DNA of 64,000 bases from Lytechinus variegatus (taxonomy: Eukaryota > Echinodermata > Echinoidea > Temnopleuroida > Toxopneustidae), in the NCBI RefSeq assembly GCF_018143015.1, contig NC_054747.1, positions 34,732,733-34,796,732 of the forward strand, written 5' to 3'. The notes beneath the pieces were generated by a model, which was not told the origin of the DNA, ran no database searches, and saw only the letters and a list, made by a program, of their open reading frames with translations. Shown piece after piece: positions 729-60,524 of this stretch. The position numbers and the translations under genes are program-made. Each line of letters starts with the position of its first letter. The first letter of the stretch is position 1.

Positions 729-1266
729 CCCGGGGGGGGGGCACTTACATTTACGATCGCGAGTGGAAACCATGCGCGACCAAAAAAACACGTTAAAAGG
801 ATGTCTTTTTCAAGATAGGGCACGTTACGTACGTAACGTGATAAGGGTGTCAAAAACCCAAAAATAATGAAAAAAAAGTATTTGTTTCGCTAGGAAAGCT
901 ACGTGTTTGGGGTCAAATTTGCGGAGATGATAAAACAAAATCAAAATGTTTTATAAAGGATGTTCTTTTTGTCCCAACACTACGTGTTTAGAATCCGAAT
1001 TGCGCGAGGTAATTTGGGGCCGTATACTAAACCAAATGGTGTGTGAAGGTAAAACCGACGACCTACAGACCCGTGACATAACAAGAAAATATCGCTGTAC
1101 TTGTTCGGGGGTTCATTTCAGGGAATACTTGCCAAGAGTATCGTTTTGTTTCCAATACGTGTTAAGGGTAGGGTTTCACACGCCAATACTTAAGGGTGCA
1201 TTTTCAGAATATGGGAAATACGTGTTTAGGGTGCATTTCGATGGTCGTGCATGGTATCCACCCGTT

Positions 1267-1274
1267 AATGGAAG
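1267..1274. repeat. Left 8-bp target-site duplication (AATGGAAG)
   Basis: Identical to 7748-7755 on the far side of the 6.47-kb element. Joining the two flanks at this octamer restores the right terminus of the foldback element, which supports insertion into it. Confidence 0.7.
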
Positions 1275-1699
1275 CAGGCGCGGATCCAGGATTTCGTAGG
1301 GAGGGGGGCCCAAATTCGACCTGATTTTGGCGCCCCTGTGTACTTTTCGGAAAAATGGCGGCCCCTCCCTCCCCCAGGCAATCATAAGTGCGTTAAATGC
1401 ATGTTAAATTATCTTATTTCATAGGCACATGAATCAGGGGCAGATCCAGCCTTCGCCAATAAAGGGCCCAGAATTTTTGTTTAGCCATAATTTCCCCGAT
1501 CGGCCGCTCGAAGATGTTTTTTTTTTCGTTTGTTTATTTGAAGGGTTCTTTAAGTTCTTTTTTAAGTCAATATAAATGTTTTAAAAAATCAACATAAATG
1601 TATAATATCATAATCCTTATTTTATAATGCCTGCGCAAAGTTTGAAAATTTTTTTTTTAAATTTTGTATTTTTTCCTAAAAATTGTAAATTCTGAAAAA

Positions 1700-4600
1700 A
1701 AAGCAATAATTACTGCGAACGCAAAGCGCTAGTAGAAATTTTTGATACACGTTTTGAACCGATCGAAAGGTTAAAGGCCTACCAGTCCTGTTAAAGATTG
1801 CATACAGTTAGCTATGAAGACGTTATATATTTCAACAATCAAATAATGCGAGCGCGAAGCGCGATCTTAAAAATTTTGACATTTTCTCCATAAAGAATGG
1901 AAAATTTTAAATTATTTTGTAATCATGAACACGATAGCTATACAGTATAACTAAACAATTGATGCGAGCGCGAAGTGCAAGCGGAAAAAATTAGAATTAG
2001 ACCTAAAACGGGACACTCTATTCATGTTTCCTAAATCATGAAAAAGATGAGTAACAGGGGATCTTCCTACATTAATAATGCGAGCGCAAAGCGCGAGCAG
2101 AAAATGTTTGTATACGTTTTGAACTGATCAAAAAGTTCCTTTTAAGGACTGCTTGCATTTAGCCATGAAGACATTAGATATTTCATCAATCAAATAATGT
2201 GAGCGCGAAGCGCGAGCTAAAATTTTTTGACATTTCTACATAAAGAATGGAAAACTTTGATACAATATACTTAATTACAGAAAAAAAAAAAATTCGAATC
2301 TGTACTGATTCCCAATATTTATCACACACAAATCCATTATTCTATAAACTAAAGACTCTAACAGTATTTGACATAAATACACTTCAAAGTTTACTACTTA
2401 TGTTTAAGTACGTTATAACATGCTCCCACCTACTTTCATTCCACAATTTTTATTACCTGAATACATCTATTCATTCATACTCTGCCTGTAACTCTTCAAA
2501 ATTCCATTTAATCAACCCCAAACTGCTTATTGCGCAGAGATCCATATGACACCATGATCCAGATTTGTGGAACTCTCTACCAGCAGAGTCTGTAAAACAA
2601 ACTTCGTCTCTTCATTCATTTAAGACAAACGTTAAATCTATGTTATTTTTAGAATATTTGAAGTAAAATTTTTGTGTCGTATCCTTTTTATCGTGAATTT
2701 ATTCCTCCTTCGATTTAGTTATTACCAATATCTTCATCATGACTACCATCATCTCCATGGCCTTCATCATCATCATCATATCACCGTCACCCTCAGCTTT
2801 ATCATCTTCATTTTTATGCTATAATATTGCATGAATTCATGTTTCGTATTTAAAAATAAATGCCAATTCTGCTTTATAAATGTATTAATTCAATTAGTAT
2901 AAGTTTGGGATTGTCGTTTTTTCAAGCAATTTGCTTATGATGACAATCCTTCTGCAAATTGTGAATATCATATAGTTTATCATTTTTGTCTAGAATTATT
3001 TTTTCAGTACTCTATTTATGATTGATGCCAAAAATGCTAACATATTATGTTTATTATGTTGTGAAAAATGTATTATACGAATGTTATGGATGCAGAAGAA
3101 AATAATAAATCAAGTCAAATTCTAGATTTAGACCTAGAACGGGACACTCTATTCATGTTTCCTAAATCATGAAAAAAAATGAGTAAGAGGGGATCTTCCT
3201 ACATTAATAATGCGAGCGCAAAGCACGAGCAGAAAATGTTTGTATACGTTTGGAACTGATCGAAAAGTGCCTTTTAAGGACTGCTTGCATTTAGCCATGA
3301 AGACATTACATATTTCATCAATCAAATAATGCGAGCGCGAAGAGCGAGCTGAAAATTTTGACATTTCTACATAAAGAATGAATAACTTTAATCAGTTTTT
3401 GTAATCATGAACAAGATAGCTATATAACTAAACAATTGATGCGAGCGGAACTATTCTAGATTTAGACCTAGAACGGGACACTATTCATGTTTCCTAAATC
3501 ATGAAAAAGATGAGTAAGAGGGATCTTCCTACATTAATAATGCGAGCGCAAAGCACGAGCAGAAAATGTTTGTATACGTTTAGAACTGATCGAAAAGTGC
3601 CTTTTAGGGACTGCTTGCATTTAGCCATGAAGACATTAGATATTTCATCGATAAAAAAATGCGAGCGCGAAGCGCGAGCTGAAAATTTTTGACATTTCTA
3701 CATAAAGAATGGAAAACTTTAATCAGTTTTTTTAATCATGAACAAGATAGCTATATAAATAAACAATTGATGCGAGCGGAAAATTTTAGTTTTAGACCTA
3801 GAACGGGACACTATTCATTTCAAGACATTAGATATTTCATCAATCAAATAATGCGAGCGCGAAGCGCGAGCTGAAAATTTTTGACATTTCTACATAAAGA
3901 ATGGAAAACTTTAATCAGTTTTTGTAATCATGAACAAGATAGCTATATAACCAAACAATTGATGCGAGCGCGAAGTGCGTGCGGAAAATTTTAGTTTTAG
4001 ACCTAAAACGGGACACTATTCATTTCAAGACATTAGATATTTCATTCATCAATCAAATAATGCGAGCGCGAAGCGCGAACTGAAAATTTTGGCATTTCTA
4101 CATGTAAATAAAGAATGGATAACTTTAATCAGTTTTGTAATCATGATCAAGATAGCTTTATAACTTAACAATTGATGCGAGCAGAAAAATTCTAGATTGA
4201 GACCTAGAACGGGACACTATTCATGTTTCCTAAATCATGAAAAAGATGAGCAAGAGGGGATCTTCCTACATTAATAATGCAAGCGCAAAGCGCGATTAGA
4301 AAATGTTTGTATACGTTTTGAACTGATCGAAAAGTGCCTTTAAAGTGCTGCTTGCATTTAGCCATGAAGACTTTACATATTTCACAATCAATTTATGCGA
4401 GCGCGAAACGCGAGCGTAAACAAAACCGAGATTTCAACCTTGTACGGGATACTCTATTCATGTTTTGTAAATCATGAAAGGGATGAGAAAGGGGATCTTC
4501 TTACATTAATAATACGAGCACAAAGGGCGAGCAGATTTTTTTTTATATTGTGATCTGAAACTGGATAACTGAATGAAAATGCCCGGGCGTGTTTCAGATT

Positions 4601-4930
4601 AAGACCTAGAATCTAGGCATTCTAAACAATCTTTTATCATGAAAATAAAAGCGAGCGCGAAACGCGAGCTTAAAATATTTGATATTCCGATCTGATATTT
4701 CAAACACTTTGTAGGAAACTTGTAAGGTGGATATAAATCGCATTTGATAAAGAGCTGATATGTTTCATTATTACTTTAATTTTGAGACATAGGACCTTGA
4801 CATCCTTAGGACATGTTATCATATGAATATGATGACTATATATCTTCCTATTCATCTTGCTAAGCGCGAGATCAAACAAAAGTGACAATTTAATTATTAA
4901 ATTGATATCTTAGTATAATGCATAATGAGG
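1700..4930. repeat. Satellite array with GCGAGCGCGAAGCGC cores
   Basis: Units of a composite repeat of roughly 350 bp recur, each with up to three near-palindromic cores of the type GCGAGCGCGAAGCGCGAGC. The cores are separated by conserved AT-rich spacers, for example ones containing GACCTAGAACGGGACACT, GGATCTTCCTACATTAATAA and GCATTTAGCCATGAAGAC. Copies are best between 3100 and 4450 and decay at both ends. A LINE fragment interrupts the array at about 2290-3110. Open frames in this region are repeat artefacts. Confidence 0.8.
2290..3110 (+). mobile_element. 3' end of a CR1/L2-type LINE (reverse transcriptase C-terminus)
   Basis: One reading frame from about 2296 to 2666 matches the C-terminal region of non-LTR retrotransposon ORF2. 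It starts with a TNPLFYKLKTL segment and continues, in the same frame, through an in-frame stop (TGA, 2547-2549) to DPDLWNSLP and then SSLHSFKTNVKSMLF, ending at TAA 2664-2666. The WNSLP motif followed by a FK...K helix is the usual end of these polymerases. About 440 bp of AT-rich 3' sequence with CAT-type repeats follows. The copy is 5'-truncated and dead. It sits inside the GCGAGC satellite and replaces part of one unit. Family assignment beyond the LINE class is a guess. Confidence 0.7.
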
Positions 4931-4959
4931 GCGCGGAATCTGATGATATTATGGCCTGA

Positions 4960-5135
4960 ACACTGCACCCCTAAATTTCAAATTGAACCCCTAGGGATGC
5001 AATTTTGAACCCACATGGTGCAAAAATGAACCCCAACCGCAGGATTCAATTTTTGAACCCCAAATCAGGGGTCAATTTTGAACCCATAGGGTGCTGATTT
5101 TGCATCAACCTTTCGGGGTTAAATTTTCTGAACCT
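4960..5135. repeat. Degenerate short tandem repeat (TTGAACCCC-type)
   Basis: A word close to TTTGAACCCCTAGGG recurs about six times at 25-35 bp spacing. It is non-coding. Confidence 0.6.
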
Positions 5136-5211
5136 TTTTTTCTTAGTGTGTGCAAGTAAACTTCAAAATTTCTGTAAATAATATCTATCAATATATCCAT
5201 CAGTGTTGTAG

Positions 5212-5345
5212 TCAAGGCTGAAACCTCCAAGGCCAAGGCTTTAATACCCAAGACCAAGGCTTCAATCCCCAAGGCCAAGGCCAAGGCATGGAAACCCAAG
5301 GCCTAAAAACCTCAAGGCCAAGGCATTTCAAACTTTCAATATATG
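5212..5345. repeat. CCAAGGC minisatellite
   Basis: The word CCAAGGC or AAGGCCAAGGC repeats more than ten times. Long open frames through it on both strands are explained by the repeat. Confidence 0.7.
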
Positions 5346-5369
5346 GGACAATGAGCCAACAACAAGGCG

Positions 5370-6815
5370 GCAGTTCGAATATCAGTTTCGCGCCCCTACA
5401 TGTAGGTCGATCATCAATTTGGCCCCCCCCCGTTCGAACATCGATCGGCCCCAGTTCGAACATCATTTTGGCATCCCTTCGAACTCGATTTGCCTTCCCT
5501 AGTTCCAATATAATTTCGCCCCCCCCCTAGCTCGAGTATCAATTTGGCGCCCCCTAGTTTGAACATCAATTCGGCGCCCCCTAGTTTGAGTATCAATTTG
5601 GCGCCCCCTACCGCGAATATCGATTCGGCCCCCCTCCCAAGTTCGAGTATCAATTTGGTGCCCCCACTTCGAACATTATTTCGGCGCCCTCCTAGTTCGA
5701 ATATCAGTTCGGCGCCCCTACATGTAGGTCAATCATCATTTTGCCCCCCCCCCCCCCCCTGTTCGAACATCAATTCGGCCCCCAGTTCGAACATCATTTT
5801 GGCATACCTTCGAACTCAATTTGCCTTCCCTAGTTAGAATATCATTTCGCCCCCCTAGTTCGAGTATCAATTTTGCGCCCCCCCCCCTAGTTTGAACATC
5901 AATTCGGCGCCCCCTAGTTTGAGTATCAATTTGGCGCCCCCTACCTCGAACCTCGATTCGGCCTCCCTCCCTTGTTCGAGTATCATTTCGGCGCCCTCCT
6001 AGTTCGAATATCAATTCGGCGCCCCTACATGTAGGTCCAACATTAATTTGGCGCCCCTACATGTAGGTCGATCATCAATTCGCCCCCCCGTTCGAACATA
6101 AATTCGGCCCCCAGTTGGAACATCATTTTGGCATCCCTTCGAACTCAATTTGCCTTCCCTAGTTCGAATCGCCCCCCCCCCCCCTAGCTCGAGTATCAAT
6201 TTTGCGCCCCCCTAGTTCGAACATAATTTTAACATCCCTTCGAACATCATTTCGGCGCCCTCCAAGATCGAATATCAATTCGGCGCCCTACATGTAGGTC
6301 CAACATCAATTTGGCGCCCCTACATGTAGGTCGATCATCAATTCGGCGCCCCTACATGTAGGTCGATCACCAATTCGGCCCCCCCCCCCGTTCGAACATA
6401 AATTCGGCCCCCAGTTCGAACATCATTTTGGCATCCCTTCGAACTCAATTTGCCTTCCCTAGTTCGAATATCATTCCCCCTAGCTCGAGTATCAATTTTG
6501 CACCCCCTAGTTTGAACATCGATTCGGCCCCCCCCCCCCAGAGCTCGAACATCGATTCGGCCCCCTCCCAGTTCGAACATCATTTCGGCGCCCTAGCTCG
6601 AGTATCAATTTGGCCCCCCTAGTTCGAATACCATTTCGCCCCCCTCGCTCGAGTATCAATTTGGCGCCCCCTAGTTCCAACATCAATTTGGCGACCCTAC
6701 GTCGACCATCAATTCGCCCCCCCCCCCCCCTTCAAACATCAATTCTGCCCCCAGTTTGAACAGCATTTTGACATTCCTTCGAACATCATTTCAGCGCCCT
6801 TTTGGTTCGAACATC
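5370..6815. repeat. TTCGAA satellite with higher-order structure
   Basis: Roughly 50 degenerate units of 25-28 bp, close to TAGTTCGAATATCAATTCGG plus a C-rich tail, run head to tail. A larger module recurs around 5390, 5720, 6030-6070 and 6290-6360, a period of about 320 bp. It contains CCTACATGTAGGTCGATC followed by TTTTGGCATCCCTTCGAACT. This shows amplification of multi-unit blocks on top of the basic repeat. Several long frames here are artefacts of the 27-bp period. Confidence 0.8.
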
Positions 6816-6816
6816 A

Positions 6817-7693
6817 TTTTCTTTCCTCCTCTTCCTCTTTTTTCTTCTCGTCCTTCTCCTCTTCCTCTCCCCTTTCTTCTCTTCTTTCCCCCTTTCTCTC
6901 TCTTTTTTTCTTCTCTTTCTTCCATCTTCCTCTTTCTTCTCCTTTTCCCCTCTTCCTCTCTCTTTTCCCCCCTCTTCCTCTTTTTTTCCCCTCCCTCCCT
7001 TTTCTTCTCTTCCTTCCCCCTCTTCCTTTTTTTCTCTTTCTTTCCCCTCTTCTTTCCCCCTTTTTTCCTTTTCTTTCCCCTCTTCCTTTCCCCTTTTCTC
7101 CCCCTTCTCTCTCTTTTTTCCTCTTCTTTCTTCCCCCTCTTCCTCTCTTTCCTTTTTTCTCCTTTTCCCCTCTTCCTCTCTCCCCCCTCTTCCTCTTTTT
7201 TCTTCTCCCTCCCACTCCTTTTTCTTCTCTTCCTTCCCCCTTTTCCTCTTTTTTCTCTTTCTTTCCCCTCTTTTCTCCTCTTCTTTCTTTCCCCTCTCTT
7301 TTTTTCTTCTCTTCTTTCCTCTCTCTCCCTCCCCTTTCTTTCTTCTCTTCCTCCTTTTCTTTTCTCTTTTTCTTCTCTTCCTTTCCCCTCTTCCCCTCTT
7401 TCTCTTTTTTTCTCCTTTTCTTCCTCTCTTTTTCCTTCTCTTTCTTTCCCTTTTCCTCTCTCTTTTCCTTCCCTTCCTTCCCCCTCTTCCTTTTCTCCTT
7501 TTTCCCCCCTTTTCTCTCTCTTTTTTCCCTCTTCTTTTCCTCCTCTCCCCTCTCTCTTTTCCCTTTTTCTTTTCCCCCCTTTTCCTCTCTTTTCCCCCTT
7601 TTCCTCTCTTTTTTCTTCCCTTCTTCCTTTCTTCTTTTTTCTTTTCTTTCCCCTCTTCCCCTCTTTTTCTCTTCTTTCCCTCTCTCTTTTTTT
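6817..7693. repeat. 877-bp nearly pure pyrimidine tract
   Basis: Only three purines (6850 G, 6924 A, 7214 A) interrupt 877 bases of C and T on the plus strand. The run is a mix of CTTCC, CCCCTTTT and TCTCTT words without one fixed period. It ends 40 bp from the right terminus of the hAT-like element. It can form triplex (H-) DNA in principle. Frames of about 300 residues on both strands are compositional only. Confidence 0.85.
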
Positions 7694-7747
7694 AGCCGAA
7701 GGGGGGGGCCAAGGCCCCCTCGGCCCCCCCCCATGGATCCGCGCCTG

Positions 7748-7755
7748 AATGGAAG
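7748..7755. repeat. Right 8-bp target-site duplication (AATGGAAG)
   Basis: Matches 1267-1274 exactly and directly follows the terminal CTG of the right inverted repeat. Confidence 0.7.
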
Positions 7756-7789
7756 TGCCCCCCCCCCTCGGGGGGGAGTGGAATGATTA

Positions 7790-33341: not shown

Positions 33342-57182
<23,841 letters not shown>

Positions 57183-60243: not shown

Positions 60244-60524
60244 AATATAGGATTTGTATAGCGCACGTATCCACCTTGCTAGGTACTCAAGGCACTCCTA
60301 TATTACCCCGGCTTAGCTACTCTACCAATTCTGGTGCATGCAGCATTTTAAGGAATTTCTTCCTGCCGGTATCCATTTACCTAACCTGGGTCGAGTGCAG
60401 CACAGAGTGGATAAATTTCTTGCTGAAGGAAAACACGCTATGGCTAGGATTCGAACCAACAACCCTCTCTCTGAAAGGCGAGAGTCAGAACCGATCAACT
60501 AGACCAAGACGCACCCACACATAG
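60244..60524 (-). mobile_element. tRNA-derived SINE
   Basis: The minus strand has GGTTGTTGGTTCGAATCCTA (box B region), AGCAAGAAATTTATCCACTC and GCACTCGACCCAGGTTAGGT. It ends with the AGCAAGGTGGATACGTGCGC type tail and ATT repeats. Confidence 0.75.

Follow-up and report, generated by a model that had tools for sequence, protein, structure and literature searches.

A 6,473-bp block at positions 1275-7747 of the DNA analyzed here is best read as one non-autonomous composite hAT-like element that was transposed as a whole, satellite arrays included (probability about 0.92). The DNA, hereafter the window, is a 64,000-nucleotide stretch of the Lytechinus variegatus genome (NC_054747.1), located on contig C8 of 33 contigs totaling 870 Mb. 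A first-pass annotation made from the sequence had offered movement of the entire block, with its satellites, as one of two explanations; other loci in the genome bear this out, as complete copies there keep essentially the same part order and are each flanked by an 8-bp duplication of their own.

A bounded block with hAT-type ends

The block has perfect 14-bp inverted ends and a perfect 8-bp duplication, as the annotation had claimed (CAG...CTG ends). Fourteen bases are identical at both ends, and base 15 no longer pairs. When the window was scanned for CAG...CTG pairs flanked by an exact 8-bp duplication, 11 pairs came up, of which the block pair matches at 10/10 end bases and the runner-up at 7. 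Chance pairing of the ends was rejected, as the best of 100 block shuffles reached 8/10 end bases against 10/10. The duplicated AATGGAAG is present in the window only at 1267-1274 and 7748-7755; as a bare 8-mer it is not rare (4.3 expected). A third terminus, with two mismatches, is found at 1435-1448.

Members of the hAT superfamily are characterized by an 8-bp target-site duplication, short inverted ends that often start with CAG, and a transposase with a dimerization domain. The ends of the block are short and start with CAG (the 14-bp CAGGCGCGGATCCA), and the window block and 11 further copies are flanked by 12 different 8-mers, with 11/12 duplications perfect and one with a single mismatch. 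At 6,473 bp the block is far from the size of miniature inverted-repeat transposable elements (MITEs, ~400 bp), and the long inverted ends with tandem repeats that define foldback elements are absent, pairing being confined to 14 bp.

Tandem Repeats Finder (TRF) and direct measurement of the tract confirmed that the block encloses a GCGAGC satellite, a TTCGAA higher-order satellite and an 877-bp pyrimidine tract. GCGAGC units of 330 and 192 bp occupy 3117-4224, and the TTCGAA array detected at 5372-6519 has periods of 329 and 295 bp. The fragment at approximately 2290-3117, which resembles a long interspersed nuclear element (LINE), is stop-rich; one frame reads DPDLWNSLPAESVKQTSSLHSFKTNVKSMLF, which we take to be the tail of a CR1/L2-type reverse transcriptase, a candidate label for the fragment. 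No transposase frame stood out by eye among the window's open frames of at least 110 aa, in agreement with the annotation, which had seen none in the block. A second pyrimidine-rich array (86-bp unit, ~6 copies, 91%) lies outside the block at 37700-38242.

Whole copies and block-free sites

The 14-mer end has 1,817 exact copies in the genome (reversed control, 0). From the first 100 end places we drew 20 regions on C1, 13 around at least two ends and 7 around single ends, and searched them with a script that tolerated up to 3 mismatches in the ends and up to 2 in the duplications. The assembly search for copies with both termini, which the annotation had proposed, yielded them in 8/20 of these regions and in 3/4 relatives of the deletion form described below. 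The eight C1 copies (L011, L012, L013, L015, L017, L018, L019 and L028) range from 6,242 to 8,941 bp and are flanked by eight different duplications, all perfect; one end has 2 mismatches in L015 and 1 in L028, with none in the remainder. An extra accepted pair in L020 (313 bp, duplication with 2 mismatches) was left out of the count. The other regions contain parts cut at the region edge (e.g., L009, L010, L016 and L023), 1.0-1.1-kb relatives (L014, L022 and L024), outer arms without the nested part (L021 and L025), and a further related type with no whole copy (L026 and L027).

Painted with the window's parts, the eight C1 copies show an essentially constant order: outer arm, nested left end, GCGAGC, LINE fragment, GCGAGC, middle, TTCGAA, pyrimidine tract, right end. 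The LINE fragment is painted wholly or partly in 7/8 copies (absent from L013, partial in L019), and L017 and L019 contain extra unmatched stretches (0.6 and 2.4 kb, respectively). L017 has the segment before TTCGAA only in inverted form, and the outer arm of L018 is longer. The outer left arm (1275-1434) is 95.0-99.4% identical in the 7/8 copies with at least 70% of the arm aligned, and segment 4500-4950 of the eight long copies is 95.1-98.0% identical to that of the window. A six-frame reading of the middle part and the 20 regions revealed no frame recognized as a transposase in the composites. In the middle of L012 and L028 a stretch including an internal left terminus is missing, apparently at the same joint in both, and the middle of L012 also holds a short inverted copy of neighboring sequence.

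The block resides in an inverted-repeat element, the host repeat, which starts with a G run followed by CACTT and is high-copy in the genome. The ends of this repeat pair at 95% (732-751 with 7748-7767), and joining the flanks of the block yields an inverted match of 82% across 51 bp. The annotation had also suggested a search for the empty site. With up to 2 mismatches allowed, the joined, block-free site with a single AATGGAAG occurs 1,687 times (33 of these with 1 mismatch, 0 exact; reversed control, 0), in paralogous copies of the host repeat. Sequence retrieved for two of these loci, L067 (85% over 565 bp) and L068 (in pieces, 84-87%), aligns to the joined flanks and spans the joint. Because the paralogous block-free sites have a single AATGGAAG, the added DNA is the 6,473-bp block together with one AATGGAAG copy.

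Nested structure of the unit

The annotation's description of the block as one transposon holds in that it moves as a unit between its outer ends, but the unit is composite: the GCGAGC array sits in a second element nested inside the outer one. In the long copies, the outer arm closes with CATGAAT (CATAAAT in L019) and is followed by the terminus; far downstream there is a degenerate right terminus (GGATCCGCCTATG in most copies) and then CATGAAGAAGAGG or a close variant. This right end of the nested element was lost from the window with the internal deletion. In L021 and L025 the outer arm continues directly into the sequence normally located beyond the nested right terminus, and a search tolerating up to 3 mismatches detected the uninterrupted outer sequence at 18 places (control, 0), with CATGAAG at the joint in 10, CATAAAG in 6 and other readings in 2. 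The GCGAGC part was therefore most likely a separate insertion into the outer element, accompanied by a duplication of ~7-8 bases that would since have changed. The 18 empty inner sites, together with the outer duplications of the whole copies, mark the unit as composite.

The nested element has ends like those of three 1.0-1.1-kb elements (L014, L022 and L024), which contain 10, 9 and 7 GCGAGC motifs and have 5-bp duplications (GAAAA, GTCCT and CACTT, respectively). These related elements, which share this type of end, span L014 451-1544, L022 481-1546 and L024 18-1043, and a further one, with the 5-bp duplication AAGAC, spans L021 3447-8675.

The composite may have originated from two neighboring elements that became joined and came to use their outer ends as a pair, as in the Ac macrotransposons of maize. 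This origin, which is compatible with transposition of the whole block, is a tentative possibility. A second left terminus lies inside the long copies, where its context is nearly constant, and this terminus, with GCGGGAGC, GCGGGATC or GTGGGAGC to its left, is also found in L009, L010, L014 and L016, while outer arms without the nested part exist (L021, L025). However, the sequence just past the internal terminus is also present in L021, which lacks the terminus, and may be a local duplication; in addition, no separate second half with its own duplication was found among the 20 regions. One of the 18 nested-free places is in L014, close to such an internal left terminus, and thus the terminus can occur without the nested element. 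No right end matching the outer element of L021 was seen at the single guessed place examined.

The internal-deletion form

The window copy is an internal-deletion form, in which ~0.9-2.9 kb of the middle is missing relative to the eight long copies; the deletion joint falls within a common ACTG. The deletion junction was detected at 18 loci including the window, exactly at 17 and with a mismatch at one (reversed control, 0), and the undeleted junction at 340 loci (up to 3 mismatches; control, 0). Four deletion-form relatives were chosen by their LINE and deletion junctions, not by their ends, and small pieces were fetched at the expected ends. Both ends were present in three of them: the C12 relative (6,491 bp) has CCTGCATT on both sides, the C2 relative (6,569 bp) has GCTGGTTG on both sides, and the C17 relative (6,435 bp) is flanked by CCGGTGCC and CCGTTGCC, a duplication with 1 mismatch.

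The first 199-200 bp of the C2, C17 and C9 relatives are 99.5-100% identical to the window; the lower value for the C12 left end (93.8% over 389 bp) is due to a divergent patch. Right-end pieces (187-321 bp) of C12, C2 and C17 show 0 substitutions and 4-21 gap positions relative to the window. Set beside the 95.1-98.0% identity of the long copies in segment 4500-4950, these values hint at a late spread of the deletion form. A stronger statement, that the deletion form is clearly younger, was dropped: across the 121 bp of the LINE junction, identity to the window is 96-100% for the listed deletion-form members and reaches 98-99% in some undeleted copies.

Satellite arrays between shared junctions

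The array/LINE junction is present at 40/40 scored places including the window (of 495 candidates), with 94-100% identity. Since this junction of one origin occurs at many sites, with different duplications where the ends were checked, the array and the LINE fragment moved together. Spacing between the LINE and deletion junctions was obtained for 17/18 deletion-form members (the C16 member is missing from the LINE-junction match list) and is 2165, 2708, 2711, 2712, 2713, 2713, 2768, 2775, 3050, 3052, 3053, 3529, 3691, 3717, 4026, 4109 and 7229 bp; 11/17 values fit steps of ~330 bp, or one unit, from the commonest value. Nine whole copies that were compared have 9-42 TTCGAA motifs and 15-31 GCGAGC motifs, and the pyrimidine tract ranges from 527 to 986 bp across the eight C1 copies. 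The satellites travelled with the transposon and changed length too.

The second explanation in the annotation, that a small MITE inserted and its cargo grew into satellites afterwards, independently at each locus, is very improbable. Variable array length among copies and the three 1.0-1.1-kb relatives with 7-10 GCGAGC motifs speak for such growth, but the LINE and deletion junctions are common to copies at different loci, and in three close relatives the pyrimidine end has no substitutions relative to the window. The shared junctions and the substitution-free pyrimidine end indicate that the arrays predate these insertions; the part of the explanation that stands is that array lengths differ between fixed junctions. 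The proposed link to the birth of satellite DNA did not emerge from a genome scan with TTCGAA, which gave 228 matches at 40 scored of 771 candidates; among the matches listed there is no long free array, the clusters being element-sized (up to ~2.3 kb).

Transposase search and weight of the evidence

PF05699, the hAT dimerization family, gave 63 matches from 150 scored of 187 candidates. Thirty of these loci were fetched, and two weak terminus matches, with 3 mismatches, were found among them. Open frames at L014 3236-4979 resemble, by eye, a DDE-type transposase of another superfamily (candidate), and L024 has a candidate retroelement polyprotein, also judged by eye.

Several results weigh against transposition of the block as one element. 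No transposase partner emerged, as the 30 of 63 PF05699 matches examined with 1.5-kb flanks have no terminus at up to 2 mismatches. Whole copies were missing from 12/20 C1 regions, and the tolerance of the script for mismatched ends and duplications made the perfect C1 duplications a test that was not wholly blind. The left end of the C9 relative was found, with the right end outside the fetched piece. Six of the 17 spacings (2165, 2768, 2775, 3529, 4109 and 7229) are off the 330-bp steps, and excision could in principle account for some of the 18 places at which the nested element is missing.

The absence of a partner transposase from the PF05699 loci fetched would also fit a spread chiefly through segmental duplication or extrachromosomal circles, without transposase. 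We consider this even less probable than growth after insertion, as every checked copy stops at its termini and has its own 8-bp duplication. Least credible is a chance arrangement of two separate short elements around an unrelated satellite block: internal termini do exist (the third in the window, others in the middle of long copies), but the outer ends share one 8-bp duplication here and in 11 checked copies (10/11 perfect), and the empty site lacks the entire block. The annotation had named two short elements, each with its own duplication, as the outcome that would refute it; this was looked for and not found.

Features of the window

Coordinates of the block, its parts and the host repeat are collected in Table 1.

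Table 1. Features of the composite block and its insertion site (window positions).
Feature	Position	Strand	Basis
Host repeat, left part (inverted-repeat element hosting the block; right end 7756-7767)	732..1266	+	End pairing, joined-flank alignment
Target-site duplication AATGGAAG, left copy	1267..1274	+	Flank comparison
Left terminal inverted repeat CAGGCGCGGATCCA	1275..1288	+	Terminus search, end pairing
Outer left arm	1275..1434	+	Comparison with C1 copies and close relatives
Nested inner element, left target-site copy (ACATGAAT)	1427..1434	+	18 insert-free places; L021, L025
Nested inner element, left terminus (CAGGGGCAGATCCA)	1435..1448	+	Terminus search, long copies
GCGAGC array, first part	1784..2289	+	Self-alignment 1784-2258 vs 3266-3720, 87%
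LINE-like fragment within GCGAGC array	2290..3117	+	Shared array/LINE junction; family label presumed
GCGAGC array, second part	3118..4680	+	TRF 330-bp and 192-bp units; motif positions
Internal-deletion junction	4953..4978	+	Junction search; comparison with 8 long copies
Segment with GAACCCC repeats and CAAGGC minisatellite (5213-5281)	4964..5365	+	TRF; long-copy comparison
TTCGAA higher-order array	5366..6816	+	TRF periods; genome match scan
Pyrimidine tract, 877 bp	6817..7693	+	TRF; motif/tract measurement
Right terminal inverted repeat	7734..7747	-	Terminus search, end pairing
Target-site duplication AATGGAAG, right copy	7748..7755	+	Flank comparison

A dispersed repeat outside the block has at least 5 copies in the window (36179-36348, 39130-39270, 40902-41073, 44507-44661 and 60346-60468) with ~79-89% pairwise identity. 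Its text resembles that of a tRNA-derived short interspersed nuclear element, but a tRNA search of the window found none.

Comparison with known systems

Satellites on DNA transposons and, in maize, large units moved by outer Ac ends are already known. The Ds elements of the maize Ac/Ds system have common 11-bp ends and are very variable in size (PMC3260210). The block is like this hAT non-autonomous type in its short inverted ends, missing transposase and variable interior, and unlike it in that the interior is mostly satellite arrays. Also in maize, large units bounded by outer Ac ends are capable of excision, and a modified 8-bp duplication stays behind (PMC9910405). The block is similarly a large unit bounded by outer ends; the Ac macrotransposons described there are 10.3- and 28-kb rearrangements with enhancer copies, whereas here a nested, satellite-carrying composite is present at hundreds of places.

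Tetris, a foldback element of Drosophila virilis, is apparently a non-autonomous DNA transposon with internal tandem repeats, which are located in the inverted ends and occur, too, as longer satellite-like arrays of kb size (PMC4079207). In contrast, the ends of the block are 14 bp, its repeats lie in the interior, and a longer free array did not turn up among the TTCGAA matches listed for the 40 of 771 candidates scored. MITE-borne satellites include Xenopus miDNA4 and Xstir as well as bivalve, ant and moth cases (PMC9659126), and the block shares with them tandem repeats that arise from or ride on a DNA transposon. Those MITEs are ~400 bp, whereas the units described here are 6-9 kb and combine two satellites, a LINE-like fragment and a pyrimidine tract; the accessible part of that survey names no hAT case among MITE-borne satellites. 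A literature search, made without subscription papers or repeat databases and covering parts of the sources, returned no description of this composite family.

Implications for satellite spread

The outer element, with its 14-bp ends and flanking 8-bp duplications, encloses a nested element (left end 1435) carrying the GCGAGC array, with the LINE-like fragment inside that array and the TTCGAA array and pyrimidine tract at the right of the assembled unit. The assembled unit is present at many loci, and the internal-deletion form, of which the window holds one of 18 detected members, spread as well. A hAT transposase acting in trans probably recognizes the two outer ends and cuts and pastes everything between them, while array length may change through unequal exchange or replication slippage. 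It is conceivable, if unlikely, that the GCGAGC units, found repeatedly in several element types with such ends, serve as dispersed binding sites for transposase or host proteins; array growth would then increase mobility, with the transposon selecting for satellites. If so, the family would both seed and breed satellites at hundreds of sites.

Hundreds of copies of the unit, each at its own site and with two satellites enclosed by fixed junctions of single origin, constitute a natural experiment on how arrays change in length and sequence after moving, and the shared junctions and empty sites allow part of the order of events to be read. The case for cut-and-paste transposons as distributors of satellites is strengthened, with a carrier that is a 6-9-kb composite and not only a small MITE.

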